From: Winogradskyella sp.
Lineage (GTDB): Bacteria; Bacteroidota; Bacteroidia; Flavobacteriales; Flavobacteriaceae
DNA: 64,000 nucleotides
Reading direction: 5' to 3'
Assembly (NCBI GenBank): GCA_028383925.1
Contig: JAOEWO010000009.1
Location: 1 to 64,000, forward strand
In this document: positions 23,600-32,215 of the stretch, piece after piece
Layout of the letters: every line of letters begins with the position of its first letter
How positions within the stretch are numbered: the first letter of the stretch is position 1
Made by a program: the position numbers and the translations under genes
The notes under the pieces: model-generated
The model's input: only the letters and a program-made list of their open reading frames with translations
The model's database searches: none
Told to the model about the DNA's origin: nothing

Positions 23600-25879
23600 T
23601 TAATCTTCTTCAGCTGTAATTGTTGCAGGTTCAACAGAACTATCATGAGCGTTGTAGTACTCTTCTAATAAATTCATTGTCGCTGTTAATAAATCTTTAG
23701 TTTCTAATAATAAGCCAAAATATAAGGTCGTATTTTTTGGACTAGATTCTTCTGTTCTTGTTCTGGCAACTTGCTTAACAATTTTATCGGTTACCAGGTC
23801 AAAGATTTCTTTTTTGTTGTTTATAACAGCACCTATTTGCTCAAATGAATGCGAATCGAATGCTGCTGTTGTTTTATTAAAAAGAATTTCTATAGCATCA
23901 TCTACTTCTTTTAGTTCTTTTATCTGACTAAATTTAAGCTTCTTGTGATTGTTATTAATATGCTTATGGCTAGTTTTAGAGATGTACTCTAAAGATTGCG
24001 TCATGTCTTGTAAATAGCCTAAAATATTAATATAAAAACTACTGGCTCTTAAACTGGTTTCATCTAGGTTTTTAATAAAGTAGAATATATTATCGCGTAG
24101 ATTATCTACCTCTTCAGATAGCTTATCTATTTGTTTCTTGTTCTTTTTTAATAACGCTAAATCTTGTTTAGCTAAGCCTTTAATTGCATTAGTGTATATT
24201 CTGTTTCCACGTTTTACGACACTTGCAATGTTACTAGCACTCTCTAAGATAACTCCTTGTACAGAACTACTTCCTGTTTCTTTTAAGCTATCTTCATCAA
24301 TAGTTTTGTTAGACTCATTTTTATGAGACATGTAATTTCTGTATAATAGAATACCTGTTAATAACAATAAAATAGGCGTCATTACAGACGGATTCCACTG
24401 TATTAAAAACACAACAAAACCAGCAGCTACAAATGCGCCAATTGCGGTACCAAACCAACCACCAATAACGTTTAATACACCAGCAACTCTGTATACTGCA
24501 CTTTCTCTTCCCCATGCTCTATCGGCAAAAGAGGTTCCCATAGCAACCATAAAAGTTACATATGTAGTAGAAAGTGGTAATTTCATTGATGTAGCAATAG
24601 CGATTAATACACCAGCAACCATAAGGTTTACTGCTGCCCTAATCATATCAAATGCAGGCGCATCAATACTTTGATCTTTAGTTAAAGTTACGGCATTTGG
24701 TTTTTCAAAACTTCTGCCTATTTTCTCTTGAGTAGATTTAGGTATTACTACGCTAAATACGTTAGATAACCAAGTCGTTCCTTTTACAACGCTTCTAGAT
24801 AACCCATTTGGTTCAAATTTATCGTGAGTATCACCTTGGCGAGATAAACTTAATTCTGTCTCAGCTACCGTTTTTGCTTTTTTAGAAAACCATAAGGTAA
24901 GTACCATAATTGCACCAGCTATAAATAATAGTAAAGGTTCTGCAGGTACTTTTTTCTCTAATACTTGCATAGAAAATAAAGAAGCATCTACACCAGATAC
25001 AGACCAAGCTTCATAAGAATGGTATGCAGCCATTGGCACTCCTATAAAGTTTACCAAATCATTACCAGAAAAAGCTAATGCTAAACCAAAAGTACCTACG
25101 GCAATAACGACTAGTAATATTGTTTTTTTTGTGATGGCCTGAAAAGCAAAAGAGACTAATAACCACATTACAAAACTACCAAGTATGATGTAAATTTCAT
25201 TTCCTTCTACAATACTTTTAAGATCTTTATAGTATGGTGTCCCTTTCAAGCCTTTTAAAAATATAAAGTAAGTAATAGCAGTTAAACAAACAGCTCCAAA
25301 TATGGCGCCAAAATTTTTGATTTTATTTTCATATTGAAATGTAAATATTAATCGCGAAACCCATTGTACTAAAGCACCAACTGTAAAAGCAATAAATACA
25401 GACATCAGTATACCTCTAATAATTTCTATAGCCTTCTCTGTATTTATATAACTACCTAAATCAGAGATAGTTGCTGAGTCTGAAGCTGTAATTTTAATTA
25501 AAGACATTACTACAGCCGCACCTAATAAATTAAAAACAATAGATACCGTTGTAGAAGTTGGTAGGCCAAGCGTATTAAAGAAATCTAATAACAATATATC
25601 TGTTATCATTACTGCCATAAAGATGTACATAATATCTTCAAAGCTAAACATGGCGGGTACAAAGATGCCTTTACGGGCAACCTCCATCATTCCGCTAGAA
25701 AAAACGGCGCCTATAAAAATACCTAAACTTGCCACAATCATAATGGTTCGCATAGAAATAGCTTTAGAACCAATTGCTGAGTTTAAGAAATTAATAGCAT
25801 CATTACTAACACCTACAACTATATCAAATACAGCTAAGACGGTAATAGCAATCAACATAAATAAGTAAATATTCTCCAT
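23600..25879 (-). CDS. PiT-family inorganic phosphate transporter fused to a C-terminal PhoU/DUF47-like domain
   Basis: VGVSNDAINFLNSAIGSKAI, FSGNDLVNFIGVPMAA, LPLSTTYVTFMVAMGTSFADRAWGRESAVYRVAGVLNVIGGW; C-terminal ~200 aa helical bundle. Confidence 0.87.
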   Translation of the reverse strand: MENIYLFMLIAITVLAVFDIVVGVSNDAINFLNSAIGSKAISMRTIMIVASLGIFIGAVFSSGMMEVARKGIFVPAMFSFEDIMYIFMAVMITDILLLDFFNTLGLPTSTTVSIVFNLLGAAVVMSLIKITASDSATISDLGSYINTEKAIEIIRGILMSVFIAFTVGALVQWVSRLIFTFQYENKIKNFGAIFGAVCLTAITYFIFLKGLKGTPYYKDLKSIVEGNEIYIILGSFVMWLLVSFAFQAITKKTILLVVIAVGTFGLALAFSGNDLVNFIGVPMAAYHSYEAWSVSGVDASLFSMQVLEKKVPAEPLLLFIAGAIMVLTLWFSKKAKTVAETELSLSRQGDTHDKFEPNGLSRSVVKGTTWLSNVFSVVIPKSTQEKIGRSFEKPNAVTLTKDQSIDAPAFDMIRAAVNLMVAGVLIAIATSMKLPLSTTYVTFMVAMGTSFADRAWGRESAVYRVAGVLNVIGGWFGTAIGAFVAAGFVVFLIQWNPSVMTPILLLLTGILLYRNYMSHKNESNKTIDEDSLKETGSSSVQGVILESASNIASVVKRGNRIYTNAIKGLAKQDLALLKKNKKQIDKLSEEVDNLRDNIFYFIKNLDETSLRASSFYINILGYLQDMTQSLEYISKTSHKHINNNHKKLKFSQIKELKEVDDAIEILFNKTTAAFDSHSFEQIGAVINNKKEIFDLVTDKIVKQVARTRTEESSPKNTTLYFGLLLETKDLLTATMNLLEEYYNAHDSSVEPATITAEED

Positions 25880-25958
25880 AATTTTTAATTAAAATAAGTT
25901 TGCAAATATCTTTATACAATTTTAGTTATACGTTACCTAATTGTTATTTTATTGTGTT

Positions 25959-27164
25959 TTAAAAATGAATGTCAAAACCTAGTCTAAAGGTAATGTTATC
26001 GTTGTTTCCGTCTAAAGAGGTGTAGCTAATATCAGACTGTACTTTAAGTTTGTGCCCAACAATAAATTTATTTACACCAAGCGTATATTGTTTTGTTGGT
26101 AAATCTCCGGTAACATCTTCGTAACTTACAGTTGTAAAACGGCCAGCAATTTCGTAATTATTTTTAAACAAGTAACCTGCTTGTAAGTTTAAAGCATTAC
26201 CAGTTAATACAATGTCACCAGTTGGTGTTGTGCCATCTATTTCTGTTGCGATTTCATCATCTGCGGTACGTTTTGCATATTCACCCATAAATGAAAACCC
26301 ATTGTATTTAAACATGGCATCTGCAAAAATAGTGGTTTGGTCTGTTTCGTAAATAGTACCATCTGTTCTTATCATGTAAGCTCCAGCAAAACCTCTTTCT
26401 CTTACAGCATCTTGGTTATAGTTATAGGTAAAACCCATCATTAATTTTGGTTTCTCTTCGCGTTTTAAGTCAGATTGGCTATAATCTCCTTTAGATTTAA
26501 AAGTACCAAATGGTAAAAATTCTAATCTTGCAGTATATTGTAAACCTCCTATATTTCCTTCTGAAACATTACGACCTTCACCTTGTGATACAGAAAATTT
26601 TTCGCGCATTAAGAAATCACGTCCTAATTTTGTTTTGTGACGTATTTGAATACCTAAATCACGATCTATATTAAAACGACTATTTAATAGTGAACGGTCT
26701 ATAAGTTGCATATTAGCAGAAGATACCACACGTTCTACGTTACCAGGTAGTTTGGTTTGACCTGCCCATAATTCCCAATTGCCATAAAAATTCCACATAA
26801 TTACAGCATCTAAGATATAACGTGGTGTGTTTCTGTTAAATTCATTAGCACCCGAAATATCTCTATTAGATAGACCTAATTCTATTTTGTATTTAAGTTT
26901 AGGGCTGTAAGCAAAACCATCAAATTTTAAACGTGCACGACGCACAATAAAATTATGTTCTGGACTGCCGTATTGGGTACCATTATAATCCCAAGAAGAA
27001 TTTGAACGTACTTGAAAACGTGGAGCAAATTTTACACTAAATGAGCTGTCTTTTGCTACAAAGTTAATTAAACCTTTACCAAAAGAAGTATCACTAATTT
27101 CTTGTGCACTAATAGATGTTGTCGCACATAGGATAAGTGCGATTAAAGCTAATCTTAATTTCAT
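25959..27164 (-). CDS. phosphate-selective porin O/P-like outer membrane protein
   Basis: Signal peptide; FAPRFQVRSNSSWDYNG, RRARLKFDGFAYSPKLKYKIELGLSN, C-terminal ITFRLGFDIHF. Confidence 0.78.
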   Translation of the reverse strand: MKLRLALIALILCATTSISAQEISDTSFGKGLINFVAKDSSFSVKFAPRFQVRSNSSWDYNGTQYGSPEHNFIVRRARLKFDGFAYSPKLKYKIELGLSNRDISGANEFNRNTPRYILDAVIMWNFYGNWELWAGQTKLPGNVERVVSSANMQLIDRSLLNSRFNIDRDLGIQIRHKTKLGRDFLMREKFSVSQGEGRNVSEGNIGGLQYTARLEFLPFGTFKSKGDYSQSDLKREEKPKLMMGFTYNYNQDAVRERGFAGAYMIRTDGTIYETDQTTIFADAMFKYNGFSFMGEYAKRTADDEIATEIDGTTPTGDIVLTGNALNLQAGYLFKNNYEIAGRFTTVSYEDVTGDLPTKQYTLGVNKFIVGHKLKVQSDISYTSLDGNNDNITFRLGFDIHF

Positions 27165-27202
27165 TATAATTTTAAGTTTTTGTCGAATGCAAATAACTAA
27201 CT

Positions 27203-27235
27203 TTAATGTTAAGTTAATGTTTCTTAAATATTAAG
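27203..27235 (-). promoter_or_regulatory. Pho-box-like 11-bp-periodic repeat upstream of porin
   Basis: TTAATGT-TAAG-TTAATGT-TTCT-TAAATAT-TAAG, about 10 bp upstream of a TTTG -7-like element (27190-27193, minus). Confidence 0.5.
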
Positions 27236-27245
27236 TTTTGGGCAT

Positions 27246-27274
27246 AAAAAAACTGCCTTGGCCAAAGGCAGTCA
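27246..27274 (-). terminator. orphan minus-strand intrinsic terminator
   Basis: Minus strand: ACTGCCTTTGGCCAAGGCAGTTTTTTT; no T-tract on the plus side. Confidence 0.65.
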
Positions 27275-27467
27275 TTAGAAATCATGATAATTAGTCGACA
27301 AAAACTAATAGATTATACGAAACTAATATGTCTCATGAGACAGTATCAAAGATAAACGACATGTTTAATGCTAACGTAACGCTATTATTAACGAATCATT
27401 AAAATATACTTGAGGGCTGTTTTTTATAACCACCTCAATTACACGTATTTAAGATCGCAATGTAAAA

Positions 27468-27500
27468 TTAATGTTAAGTAAATGTTGTTTTAATATTAAC
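27468..27500 (+). promoter_or_regulatory. Pho-box-like 11-bp-periodic repeat upstream of YwqK-like gene
   Basis: TTAATGT-TAAG-TAAATGT-TGTT-TTAATAT-TAAC, 7 bp upstream of a consensus -7 TATATTTG (27508-27515). Confidence 0.55.
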
Positions 27501-27545
27501 TAATCATTATATTTGGGTAATACGTAATTTTTTAAACCCACAGTT

Positions 27546-27914
27546 ATGAACAAAAGAGTCTTGTTTTTATTCGCTTTATTATTTAGTATTGTTTCTTTTG
27601 CGCAACAAGAGCGCAAGTTAGAACTTAACAAAGACACCAACTTAATTGACGTAACTTATTATCATGACAATGGAGCTGTAAGTCAAACAGGTACTTACAC
27701 TTTAGATGGTAAATTACAAGGTGAATGGTTAAGCTATGATATTGATGGTAATAAGAATATTGCGGCAAATTATGATAATGGGAAAAAAGTCGGCAAGTGG
27801 TTTTATTGGACAGATAAAACTTTAACAGAAGTAGATTATACAAATAATGCTATTGCTAGCATTAACGAATGGCAAAAAGGATCTAAATCCTCTTTAGCTA
27901 GTCGTAATAAATAA
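27546..27914 (+). CDS. secreted YwqK/MORN-like repeat protein
   Basis: Signal peptide ending SFAQ; YYHDNGAVSQTGTYTLDGKLQGEWLSYDIDGNKNIAANYDNGKKVGKWFYW. Confidence 0.75.
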   Translation: MNKRVLFLFALLFSIVSFAQQERKLELNKDTNLIDVTYYHDNGAVSQTGTYTLDGKLQGEWLSYDIDGNKNIAANYDNGKKVGKWFYWTDKTLTEVDYTNNAIASINEWQKGSKSSLASRNK

Positions 27915-27926
27915 AGCATTTACTTT

Positions 27927-27966
27927 ACATAAATAAAAAAAGCATCCATACTATGGATGCTTTTTT
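27927..27966. terminator. bidirectional terminator
   Basis: AAAAAAAGCATCCAT-act-ATGGATGCTTTTTT. Confidence 0.75.
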
Positions 27967-27986: not shown

Positions 27987-29177
27987 TTAGTTACCTACAG
28001 TCCAATTGGCTCCCCAAGTTGCAAAATCTGTGCCTGTAGCATTACCAATACCAGATAAGAAGTCTGCGTCAGTAAACGTATCTCCAGTATCATTTTTTAA
28101 TTGAAGTGTAACATCTACAAAAGTGACGTCTGTTACAGATAAGTCACCATTTATAACTCCGGTACCTGTTGGGTTAAGACTTGTTGCGCCAGCATTACCG
28201 TCTAAATCAAAACCTTCTTCAAAGCCTTCTAATAATACGTTTGTAAAAATACCTTGTGTACCTGCTCTTAATCTAATAGCTTCATTACCTGTGTCAGATC
28301 CATTACCAACTATAGTTAAGTTAGTTACAGTTGGTTTAGACCAAAATATTGGGCTAGAGTTGTTTCCTATGTCTGTGTTGTAACCATCAGCTTCAATACC
28401 TTTATCGTGCTCAGCACCATGAGATACATGTGCATTTGTAATAGCGCCAGTGTAACCTTCTGTCCAATCAATAGAATCGTCTTGTGCGTTAACTACAGAT
28501 ACAAAATCTACGTTTACTGTACCACCAAAAAACTCAACACCGTCATCTTTTCCTTCAAATACTTGTATGTATTGTACAGTTGTGCCATTACCTACACCAT
28601 AAAAAGAGATACCATTGTTTTCTGATTGTCCATCTGCTGAGCCGCCAGAATACTGTACTCTTAAATATCTAATAATACCAGAATTATTACTTACATCTGT
28701 ACCACCATAAGGTAAACTTGCAATTTCTGAAGTAGCAGTAGCCGCACCTGTTACGGAGTTAATAGGCGCGTCTCCTAAAAGAATTAAGCCTCCCCAATCA
28801 CCAGCTTGTGGTGCAGAAGAATCTGATGTTAAAACAATAGGATTACTTGCAGTACCATTAGCGATAATCTGTGCACCACTAGAAATAGCAATGTAAACAT
28901 CCGATCCTGATGCCTCAGCTTCTAAAACCATACCAGCAGGTATTGTTAATGTAGTACCAGATGCCATAATAAGAGATCCGTTAATTTTGTACGTATTGTT
29001 TGCGTCTAATGTTAAATCTTCAGTGTAAGTACCTGCTAAAAATATAGTACCATTAGTGTTGCCACCACCAGAACCTGTGCTATTATCATTGATAATAATG
29101 TCTGCTGTATCATCTGTTGTACATGAGTTGAAAAGCATTCCGAAAATAGCTAAACCTAAAAATAATTTATTCTTCAT
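27987..29177 (-). CDS. beta-helix-like surface lipoprotein, partner of the TonB-dependent receptor
   Basis: Lipobox LFNSC followed by TTDDTAD; repeat-like IVLTSDSSAPQAGDWGGLILLGDAPIN, DGVEFFGGTVNVDFVSVVNAQDDSIDWTEGY. Confidence 0.7.
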   Translation of the reverse strand: MKNKLFLGLAIFGMLFNSCTTDDTADIIINDNSTGSGGGNTNGTIFLAGTYTEDLTLDANNTYKINGSLIMASGTTLTIPAGMVLEAEASGSDVYIAISSGAQIIANGTASNPIVLTSDSSAPQAGDWGGLILLGDAPINSVTGAATATSEIASLPYGGTDVSNNSGIIRYLRVQYSGGSADGQSENNGISFYGVGNGTTVQYIQVFEGKDDGVEFFGGTVNVDFVSVVNAQDDSIDWTEGYTGAITNAHVSHGAEHDKGIEADGYNTDIGNNSSPIFWSKPTVTNLTIVGNGSDTGNEAIRLRAGTQGIFTNVLLEGFEEGFDLDGNAGATSLNPTGTGVINGDLSVTDVTFVDVTLQLKNDTGDTFTDADFLSGIGNATGTDFATWGANWTVGN

Positions 29178-29211: not shown

Positions 29212-32067
29212 TTAAAAATTATATTTGAATTGAAGTCCTATGCCTAGTCCTCGTTTATAGTTTGTGACGTCTTTACCGTTTGGTGATGTTACTAATACAT
29301 TACCTAAAGAGGTGCCTTCTCTTAAGTATTGTACTGTTGGGTTTAAAATGTTTCTTATACCAAGGTTAAGTTCCATTTTGTCGTTTAGTTTGTTTTTAAG
29401 TACAAAATCTAATGTTGGTATACCTTTTTCGATAACATTACCAAGTTGCCCAGAACCTAAAGCATCAATTCTATCTGAGAAGTAAGAAAAGATTAAATTG
29501 GCTGTGGGTTTGTAGTTACCAAATGTTGGTGAGTAATTAATATCTGCATTAACAATAATTGGTGATGCTCCTTGTAACTCTTCTTCACTTTTATTAAAAC
29601 TAACACTGTAAGTACCAATTATAGATTCGTACAAATCTTGTTGTGTGTGCATGTAAGTAAAGTTAAAACCTGCAGAAAGTTTTGCATTTTCTTTTTCGTC
29701 ATCCATAAGAATGTTTTTTCTTATTTCGGCTTCAAAACCTAATATTTCAGCACGTTCACCGGTTCTAAAAAAACGTTGTGTACCTGTAGCATCAAAGGCT
29801 ACAACTTGGTTTACAGGATCGTTTATTTGTTTGTAAAATGCACCTATAGAGATAATTTCACTTTTACTCATAAACCATTCGTATTTTAAATCTAAGTTTA
29901 AGATTCTAGAATACGATACATCACTTACGTTGGTGTAAGCTATGTTGCTTGTACGTCCTAATAAATCTGGATTACCACCTATGCGCTGAGAAATACTTTC
30001 GTAAAGAAATGGTGATACTTCTTTAAATTCTGGTAACGATATGGTTTCACTTGCAGAAAAACGTAAATTTTGATCTTCATTTACACCATACTTTACACTA
30101 AGACTTGGTAAAAATACCGTTTCATTAGCGCCAATGGTATTGTTACCTGCGGCACCTAAGTTAATAACGTCATAACTTATCTCTTGTGCTATAGCTTCAA
30201 CTCTTACACCTGGCACAAATAACCATTTGTCTCCTACTTTTAGTTCTGCATTTGCATAACCAGCATACACATCTAAATTACCATTATAAGTGTTTTCTGG
30301 TAGTGCTGGACGGTTTCTATTGCTTTGTCCAGGAATATTATTAATAGCTCTAATACTATATAAACCATTTTGGTTAAAGCTAGTACTTAAATTATCTAAA
30401 GAAAAAATACTGTTTAAATTATTAACGTTAGATACTGTTGTATTTGGGTTAGTAATATCGTAACCATATCTAATATTATCAAACTGTCTTTCTTTTGCTC
30501 TACCTGCAAAACCGAAGTTTAATTTTAAGTTTTCGTTGGTATTGTAAGCTAAATTTACTCTGCTATTAAATTCGTTATCGTTTATATTTTGAAAATAACG
30601 TTGGTTATCAAAAACAACATTACTATAAAAAGTAGGTGTTGTATTTGCATCATTGTCTAGTGCAAATTGGTAGTTTTCTACACTTATACGTTTTCTGTCT
30701 GGCTCGTGTGCGTTAACGACATTATAGCCAATGCCCCAATCTAAATCATATTTGTTATCTTCAAATTTATGACGACCAGTTAATTGGTTTACATAAATAA
30801 GGTTTTGATTAAATTGAACATTCATTTGGTAAAAACCTTCATCAGTATTTAAAATAGCATCTCTATTTCTACCTTTACCGTCTATACCAAAATAACCCAC
30901 TCTATCAGATGCGTTATTTATAAAAAGTGAATTAAACTTAAGTGAGTTGTTAGCATCAATTTTATAGTTTATGGTAGCCATTGCTGTAGTTTTGGTAGAA
31001 TATTCAAATTCTTCAGCATCTTCAAAAGCTTTCTTTTCTACGTTAGTATAATCTACGTTAGAACCTCTTCTGTATTCAAAACCATTTTCAAAAGAACCTG
31101 TACCATAAAAGCTTAATCTAGATCCGTTTTCAAAATCAAAAGATTTTCCAAAAGCACCACCAAAATTTATATCTATTGGTGTTTCTGCTTGTTGCGGATC
31201 AAAGCCGTGAGATAAAATAACTGCAAAAGGATTATTGTCATACCTATTATAGAATCCAAAATAACTAGTGCCTTCGCTTCTAAAAAATGTTTGATCTGCT
31301 GCGTTTGTGTTAACAGAAGAACCTACATTAAATGTAAAAAAGCCTTTCCCTTTGTAATCTTTAGAAGTGATATCTACATTACCAGCAGAAAAATCTCCAA
31401 AAAAGCGAGACGAATAGGCTTTACTTATTGATACATTTTCTATAATATCTGAAGAAAATAAATTTAAGTCTATATTTTTTTTGTTAACATCGTTAGACGG
31501 TAATGTTAAACCATTCATGGTTGTATTTAAATAACGGTCACCCAAACCTCTTACATAAACATTACTAGAACCTTCTTGTTTAGATACACCAGATATTTTT
31601 GAAACTGCACCTGCAGCATCACTAACTCCTTTACGAGACAACTCTTCTGCACCAATACTTTGCTTAATTTCTACGGCCTTTTTTTGGTCTAATAATAGTG
31701 CTGTTTCACTTTGTTTTCTTGTAGTTGTAGTAATTACTATTTCTTCGAGACTAGCTGCGCTAGCTAACATAGAAACGTTTAGGGTTATTACTTTATTTGC
31801 AATAACTTCTACTGTAATATCTTGCGTTTGGTAACCAACAAAACTGAAACTTATAACGTATGTTCCAGGTTCTAAATCTGTAAGTTCATAAAGACCATCC
31901 ATATTAGAGGTTGTGCCTTTTGTGGTTCCTTTTATTAAAACATTAGCAAAAGGTAACGGTTCATCGTTATATTCTTTGTCAATTAACTTACCCGCAATAG
32001 AGCCTGTGCTTTGTGCAAACGTTGTTGCTGTAATAAGTAAAATAAATAGATATTGTAAACTTTTCAT
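29212..32067 (-). CDS. TonB-dependent receptor with N-terminal carboxypeptidase-regulatory-like domain
   Basis: GSIAGKLIDKEYNDEPLPFANVLIKGTTKGTTSNMDGLYEL, plug SKISGVSKQEGSSNVYVRGLGDRY; ends GIGLQFKYNF. Start MKSLQYLFILLITATTFAQ preferred over 32127. Confidence 0.88.
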   Translation of the reverse strand: MKSLQYLFILLITATTFAQSTGSIAGKLIDKEYNDEPLPFANVLIKGTTKGTTSNMDGLYELTDLEPGTYVISFSFVGYQTQDITVEVIANKVITLNVSMLASAASLEEIVITTTTRKQSETALLLDQKKAVEIKQSIGAEELSRKGVSDAAGAVSKISGVSKQEGSSNVYVRGLGDRYLNTTMNGLTLPSNDVNKKNIDLNLFSSDIIENVSISKAYSSRFFGDFSAGNVDITSKDYKGKGFFTFNVGSSVNTNAADQTFFRSEGTSYFGFYNRYDNNPFAVILSHGFDPQQAETPIDINFGGAFGKSFDFENGSRLSFYGTGSFENGFEYRRGSNVDYTNVEKKAFEDAEEFEYSTKTTAMATINYKIDANNSLKFNSLFINNASDRVGYFGIDGKGRNRDAILNTDEGFYQMNVQFNQNLIYVNQLTGRHKFEDNKYDLDWGIGYNVVNAHEPDRKRISVENYQFALDNDANTTPTFYSNVVFDNQRYFQNINDNEFNSRVNLAYNTNENLKLNFGFAGRAKERQFDNIRYGYDITNPNTTVSNVNNLNSIFSLDNLSTSFNQNGLYSIRAINNIPGQSNRNRPALPENTYNGNLDVYAGYANAELKVGDKWLFVPGVRVEAIAQEISYDVINLGAAGNNTIGANETVFLPSLSVKYGVNEDQNLRFSASETISLPEFKEVSPFLYESISQRIGGNPDLLGRTSNIAYTNVSDVSYSRILNLDLKYEWFMSKSEIISIGAFYKQINDPVNQVVAFDATGTQRFFRTGERAEILGFEAEIRKNILMDDEKENAKLSAGFNFTYMHTQQDLYESIIGTYSVSFNKSEEELQGASPIIVNADINYSPTFGNYKPTANLIFSYFSDRIDALGSGQLGNVIEKGIPTLDFVLKNKLNDKMELNLGIRNILNPTVQYLREGTSLGNVLVTSPNGKDVTNYKRGLGIGLQFKYNF

Positions 32068-32150
32068 TAGTATGTTTTGTATTTCGATGCAAAGAAACGT
32101 TGACAATATCTTTTTTACGTTAATCAATAATTAACTCTTCGTAATAAAAA

Positions 32151-32215
32151 GGTTAGCTTAAAGTTAGCCTAACATTACCCATAGGTTTGCTTTGTAAACA
32201 ATTACTTAACATTGA
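32151..32215 (-). promoter_or_regulatory. two candidate Pho-box-like clusters upstream of the TonB-dependent receptor
   Basis: Minus strand TCAATGTTAAGTAATTGTT (17/19 identical to the 27468 box) and GTAATGTTAGGCTAACTTTAAGCTAACC (11-bp period). Confidence 0.4.

Follow-up and report, generated by a model that had tools for sequence, protein, structure and literature searches.

Phosphate-type promoter boxes and a candidate porin-pairing small RNA in a Winogradskyella PiT/porin gene cluster

The window, the whole stretch of 64,000 nucleotides that was analysed, belongs to a Winogradskyella genome assembly of 2.9 Mb (83% complete), which is what our genome-wide searches covered; the relatives compared are mainly Winogradskyella, Psychroserpens, Olleya and their neighbours. 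The minus strand encodes a TonB-dependent receptor (29212..32067; PF00593 and PF07715, with the start codon at 32067 read from the sequence), the receptor's partner lipoprotein (27987..29177), an outer-membrane porin of the Porin_O_P family (25959..27164; PF07396, E = 1.3e-13) and a PiT-type phosphate transporter (23600..25879; PF01384, E = 2.4e-29), and the plus strand encodes a YwqK-like small secreted protein of 122 amino acids (27546..27914) that has no Pfam or NCBIfam match. The lipoprotein gene adjoins the receptor gene in all 20 of the genera fetched, in 8 of them beside phoBR, and its position and predicted fold suggest an FII-like protein. The order that recurs in relatives is dgt, receptor-lipoprotein, YwqK, small RNA (sRNA), porin and PiT; the porin is directly preceded by dgt in three loci without the sRNA core (L073, L089 and L106), and in other genera (L337, L338, L345 and L347) sRNA and porin occur together with the receptor module missing. 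PstS (PF12849) had no match in the window's own genome and only weak matches in the genus, from which it is mostly absent, and phosphate uptake in this genome and genus appears to rest on PiT, the porin and the TonB receptor. Between the YwqK and lipoprotein genes lies a perfect inverted repeat of AT-rich sequence (27936-27966), flanked on either side by T-runs and likely a bidirectional terminator.

The preliminary description of this DNA had reported two 33-bp Pho-box-like repeats, and these are indeed present at 27203-27235 (TTAATGTTAAGTTAATGTTTCTTAAATATTAAG) and 27468-27500 (TTAATGTTAAGTAAATGTTGTTTTAATATTAAC), with identity at 28 of 33 positions; the next-best ungapped match to either one elsewhere in the window reaches 23 or 24 of 33. 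The -7-like elements assigned to them were also found, CAAA (TTTG on the minus strand) at 27190-27193 and TATATTTG at 27508-27515. The proposed geometry of the boxes holds, with a correction to the sense of the unit, the informative form of which is TTAACAT on the minus strand. Thus, the arrays of box 1 and box 2 share one direction, box 1 being directed towards the porin and box 2 away from YwqK. The idea of a single porin/YwqK divergent promoter region had to be given up, as a separate small RNA gene with its own third box sits between the two repeats. Three arrays had been overlooked: at 27374-27402 between the reported repeats, at 25919-25947 in front of PiT and at 32106-32134 in front of the TonB receptor. 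The repeats are part of a larger set of at least five candidate promoter boxes of the phosphate-response type in the cluster.

Four of the promoters follow a single layout: a gap of 10 nt separates the end of the array from a -7 element of the form T(A/C)TTTG. Box 1 of the porin promoter (TTAATAT-N4-GAAACAT-N4-TTAACAT, 27206..27234, minus strand) is conserved in relatives, where GGAAACAT and TTAACAT are near-invariant, and is followed after 10 nt by TATTTG (27190..27195, minus strand), which we read from the sequence as the -7 element. The PiT promoter (25903..25947, minus strand) reads ATAACAA-N4-GTAACGT-N4-CTAAAAT-N10-TATTTG, and box 3 with the -7 element of the sRNA (27347..27402, minus strand) reads TTAATGA-N4-TTAATAA-N4-GTTACGT-N4-ATTAAAC-N10-TCTTTG; both are conserved. 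At the TonB receptor (32090..32134, minus strand) the layout TTAATTA-N4-TTAACGT-N4-AAGATAT-N10-TCTTTG is kept in relatives. When aligned on the -7 element, the porin, sRNA and receptor promoters fall into a common register of TTAAT, TTAAC and TTAACA at 11-bp steps. Box 2 (27460..27499, minus strand) has four units, TTAATAT, ACAACAT, TTAACAT and TTTACAT, at the same 11-bp period, and its 11-bp-spaced C recurs in 43 loci; here the array is inverted relative to the YwqK -7 element (TATATTTG, 27508..27515, plus strand, with CAAATATA conserved on the other strand), and the 10-nt rule does not apply. Measured against known Pho boxes, the arrays have tandem 7-bp units with 4-bp spacers and an 11-bp period, and they lie upstream of phosphate genes (PiT and Porin_O_P and, for 7 of 8 genera, the intergenic region between phoB and the receptor), but their unit is TTAACAT rather than the E. 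coli consensus CTGTCAT.

To rank these boxes across the genome, we used a sequence-only profile (R1) built from 28 boxes of relatives, taken from porin, receptor and sRNA promoters; the training set held no window sequence, no PiT promoter and no box 2, and its E-values are rough. The top four matches of R1 in the window's own genome are the porin box (E = 5.8e-8), the PiT box (E = 0.0019), the sRNA box (match at 27347-27391, E = 0.009) and box 2 (E = 0.045), all within 1.6 kb, and the best match outside the locus has E = 0.049. The receptor box itself scores weakly, with a nearby match at 32144-32177 (E = 1.1). Since PiT promoters were absent from the training set, the PiT box is an independent prediction of the profile. 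The same locus also ranks top in most of the 10 relatives scanned. Most of the 80 porin orthologues compared in relatives have box 1 conserved in their upstream DNA, and at least 43 loci have box 2 ahead of YwqK. For PiT and the porin, the genome-wide ranking supports the view of the preliminary description that an 11-bp-period box of 7+4 bp upstream of Bacteroidota -7 elements is common to the phosphate-transport genes of the porin/PiT cluster. The genome is AT-rich, and a loose IUPAC scan for two units gave about 680 matches per strand in it, with no excess over a reversed control, a result that is uninformative in itself and that would be expected if the boxes were chance resemblances; the profile ranking and the conservation contradict such an origin, the probability of which we consider negligible.

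The block common to relatives between the two reported boxes consists of box 3, (A/C)TTTG, a variable 5′ part, a central hairpin and a terminator. In the window, this corresponds to a predicted RNA gene of ∼97 nt (27246..27342, minus strand; covariance model E = 3.9e-16), for which the covariance-model match is the sole one in the genome. The central hairpin, in which AGUUUUUGUCGACU is nearly invariant among relatives, carries in its apical loop the seed UUAGUUUUUGUCG (27296..27308, minus strand), with AGUUUUUGUC invariant in 37 of 37 sequences, and the intrinsic terminator GACTGCCTTTGGCCAAGGCAGTT followed by a T-run (27246..27273, minus strand) has many compensatory changes in its stem. The window copy folds with z = -2.9 relative to shuffled sequences, none of 200 of which is as low. 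RNAalifold recovers the stem that closes the seed loop and the terminator, and nothing else; the former is nearly invariant, and is thus uninformative for covariation. A 5′ hairpin is not established, because a stem of at least 4 occurs in 47 of 55 sequences compared to 42 in shuffles, which is no better. A small ORF within the RNA was considered and rejected, as the sole ATG-started stretch of the window copy is not conserved.

In 71 relatives, the sRNA core lies upstream of the porin gene. When 201 Flavobacteriaceae genomes, one for each genus, were searched with the covariance model (R2), 89 of them had the sRNA at E < 3e-5. Among 297 genomes drawn from the whole phylum, the R2 matches were confined to Flavobacteriaceae, and in the fully listed genomes of one genus (g144), probably Flavobacterium from its phoBR-receptor-lipoprotein order, R2 found no sRNA match. 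Rfam covariance models gave no match to the sRNA below E = 1. As judged from these searches, the sRNA is a newly recognised family that is absent from Rfam and spans ∼90 genera of Flavobacteriaceae. With a promoter and a terminator of its own, as a trans-acting sRNA should have, 27246..27342 is very probably a real RNA gene, driven by the same type of array as the phosphate boxes. In one genome (L341, G161), the sRNA is kept beside PiT, the adjacent porin is gone and the terminator T-run is weaker, which could reflect either decay or a different target.

The apical loop sequence UUUUUGUCG is complementary to GACAAAAACU, which begins four nt past the porin -7 element. According to PMC9723704, the -7 box spans -12 to -5, and thus GACAAAAACU would be the 5′ end of the porin mRNA, with a predicted start at ∼27185 and a leader of ∼21 nt. 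The target site CGACAAAAACUU (27174..27185, minus strand) offers 11-12 contiguous pairs with the sRNA, which places the window among the weaker pairings of the family. The predicted energy is -17.1 kcal/mol compared to -7.2 (sd 2.1) for shuffled leaders, only 1 of 1000 of which reaches that value, and the leaders of PiT, the receptor, YwqK and the lipoprotein yield -4 to -8 kcal/mol.

If the sRNA acts in trans on the porin mRNA, we expected complementarity to the leader to be conserved and to co-vary, and this is the case, although relatedness was left uncorrected: when cognate sRNA-leader pairs were swapped, the mean energy was worse in 5000 of 5000 permutations (likewise uncorrected for relatedness). 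Matched changes flank the seed, such as sRNA UUACAG with leader CUGUAA (L127), sRNA GUUAAG with leader CUUA..AC (L117, L118 and L124), and sRNA CGUAAAG with leader CUUUAACG (L126). Of 57 occurrences of the leader pattern in the 201 genomes, 52 lie at most 300 nt from an sRNA. One genome (G182) has two sRNA copies, and a separate target site accompanies each of them; in two others (G150 and G111) the target site is kept even though the neighbouring porin is a non-orthologous member of Porin_O_P. An extra exact seed match at C1:190806 was rejected as a target, since it looks like coding sequence rather than a leader. From these comparisons, we consider it very probable that the sRNA pairs with the porin mRNA over its first 11-18 nt; it probably regulates the neighbouring porin, apparently as its one target per genome.

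Two readings would explain the complementarity otherwise. The conserved RNA lies directly upstream of the porin on the same strand, ends in a terminator and has a loop complementary to downstream sequence, all of which would suit a leader or attenuator that acts in cis within the porin transcript, but a conserved promoter (box 1 and its -7 element) lies past the terminator in nearly all loci. Moreover, in two genomes (G141 and G118; loci L386 and L387) ∼3 kb of opposite-strand genes, for carbonic anhydrase and SulP, intervene between sRNA and porin, and the long pairing is kept; contiguity in one transcript fails there, and we rejected the cis-leader reading as highly improbable. Alternatively, the complementary segments might be the arms of a DNA operator, an inverted repeat ∼120 bp apart, and such arms would co-vary as well. 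That one arm sits in the hairpin loop of a conserved RNA with its own promoter, that the terminator stem has compensatory changes, and that the spacing grows to ∼3 kb in the same two genomes leave this second reading, if anything, more improbable still.

Which regulator would bind the arrays was considered from gene content and synteny. A search of the window's own genome with TIGR02154 gave two full-length OmpR-type regulators, on C14 and C41, and the best PhoB-like one is that on C14, which is followed by a histidine kinase; its best NCBIfam match is PhoB, with 217 bits against a cut-off of 296, and its second is Bacteroides PhoB, with 213 against 270. In this genome phoBR lies on C14, outside the cluster. 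Of 20 regions examined in other genera, 8 have the receptor-lipoprotein pair in divergent orientation beside phoB-phoR, and the phoB there is an orthologue of the C14 regulator (74-82% identity) accompanied by its kinase. By inspection, 7 of these 8 phoB-receptor intergenic regions contain the units, 10 nt and NTTTG; the eighth (L318) has the units and no clear -7 element at the 10-nt spacing. The phoBR cluster of F. johnsoniae is arranged in this way too, and its receptor and lipoprotein are induced by Pi depletion, with log2 changes of 8.0 and 9.9 (PMC8115612). The OprP of F. johnsoniae showed no Pi induction (-1.3; PMC8115612), which counts against our reading, with the reservation that its orthology to the window porin is putative.

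These observations point strongly to the repeats as binding arrays for a response regulator of the OmpR family, with PhoB as the most likely one, and PhoB control of these promoters is likely. In our estimate, a different regulator of that family at the boxes, with the cluster answering a non-phosphate signal, is unlikely. That case would draw on the second full-length OmpR-type regulator on C41, on the absence of pst and on the difference between the unit and E. coli CTGTCAT; opposed to it are the presence of PiT and Porin_O_P in the cluster, the synteny with C14-type phoB-phoR and the arrays in its intergenic regions, and the Pi induction of the putative F. johnsoniae homologues (PMC8115612).

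The membership of YwqK in the regulon, which had been proposed from box 2, may or may not hold. Box 2 occurs together with YwqK, and most loci that lack the gene (L337, L338, L345, L346, L347 and L352) lack the box too, L336 being an exception. This links the box to the YwqK gene and therefore makes control of YwqK, positive or negative, plausible; however, the units face the sRNA, away from YwqK. A short dyad, TTG-N5-CAA with variants CTG-N5-CAG, is conserved ∼15 nt after box 2 in the window (27420-27450, minus sense) and in relatives.

Taken together, we assign a probability of about 0.68 to an explanation in which phosphate-type boxes are combined with an sRNA that acts on the porin mRNA. 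PhoB-type arrays would activate the phosphate-uptake cluster from promoters in which they end 10 nt before T(A/C)TTTG, and the sRNA would display UUUUUGUCG in a hairpin loop and base-pair with the 5′ end of the porin mRNA. We somewhat favour repression, in which the duplex would keep ribosomes from entering and so reduce synthesis of the porin. The main alternative is a protective or activating role, in which the duplex at the extreme 5′ end of the porin mRNA would shield it from 5′-end-dependent decay. The pairing site does begin where the mRNA is predicted to start (by the -7 position given in PMC9723704), and sRNA and porin appear to have activator boxes in common; with a leader of only ∼21 nt, however, a duplex there would cover the ribosome landing region too, and we regard protection as distinctly the less probable outcome. 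Under repression, because the same array type stands at the porin and at its repressor sRNA, phosphate starvation would induce both together, and PhoB acting on both would form an incoherent feed-forward loop.

In E. coli PhoB and B. subtilis PhoP boxes, tandem direct units with an 11-bp period take the place of the -35 element. The arrays described here likewise have 11-bp-period tandem units beside the core promoter, where a -35 would otherwise lie, and their unit TTAACAT resembles the B. subtilis PhoP unit TTAACA; they differ in having three to four or more units at a fixed 10 nt from a Bacteroidota TAnnTTTG -7 element. Enterobacterial sRNAs of the MicF/MicC type repress porins, and the sRNA resembles them as a short RNA with its own promoter and terminator that is antisense to the region where translation of an outer-membrane porin starts. 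Unlike them, it is unrelated in sequence, encoded in tandem directly upstream of its target, and has its seed in a hairpin loop, its target at the very 5′ end and apparently one target per genome. Flavobacterial small RNAs are known in the Rfp RNAs of Flavobacterium psychrophilum, one of which, Rfp18, has mRNA targets and affects metalloproteases (PMC9723704); as compared with the Rfp RNAs covered there, the new family differs in having no member in the listed genomes of g144, the genus that is probably Flavobacterium. In the F. johnsoniae PUSIV/PhoBR cluster, phoR, phoB, a TonB receptor, lipoprotein FII and OprP lie together (PMC8115612). By gene arrangement, the order phoR-phoB-receptor-lipoprotein at L317 is similar, whereas the window's cluster holds YwqK, sRNA, porin and PiT and has its phoBR elsewhere, on C14.

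Similar arrays were seen at other loci. A second sRNA gene of ∼80 nt has the same box layout (TTAATTA-TATG-CTAATAT-TAAC-ATAACAT-N21-TCTTTG), UUAGUUAG repeats and a terminator AGTCGGTAT..TACCGACTTTTT; it is present in 10 of 18 related genomes searched in the genus (loci L217, L222, L225, L227, L228 and L234-L243) and not in the window's own genome, and has no Rfam match. A box-like array with a weak score (E = 0.09) lies upstream of a PF12850 phosphoesterase (L212, G010:C4:41485), PF12850 being a family that includes the Pi-induced F. johnsoniae PlcP. In three genomes (loci L183, L215 and L218), a conserved TTAATATTTAGTTAACACTAAGTTTACAT array lies ∼400 bp upstream of an rpiB-like gene, with no -7 element at the usual spacing.

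A bolder reading, to which we give less than even odds, is that in Flavobacteriaceae that lack Pst, phosphate-starved cells would switch their outer-membrane uptake, using PhoB to turn on the receptor-lipoprotein pair and, via the sRNA, to shut off translation of a diffusion porin whose promoter PhoB also activates, the second Pho-box sRNA extending this to a two-sRNA regulon. In the open-access literature, we found no description of a Pho box for Bacteroidota, nor a published one for Flavobacteriaceae, and to our knowledge regulatory RNAs with conserved, co-varying targets are rare in Bacteroidota outside Bacteroides. The sRNA would provide a widespread base-pairing RNA with a single clear target and a predicted loop that includes UUUUUGUC, and the arrays provide a concrete candidate definition of the Pho box for a major marine family: TTAACAT, repeated three to four times at an 11-bp period, then 10 nt, then T(A/C)TTTG.
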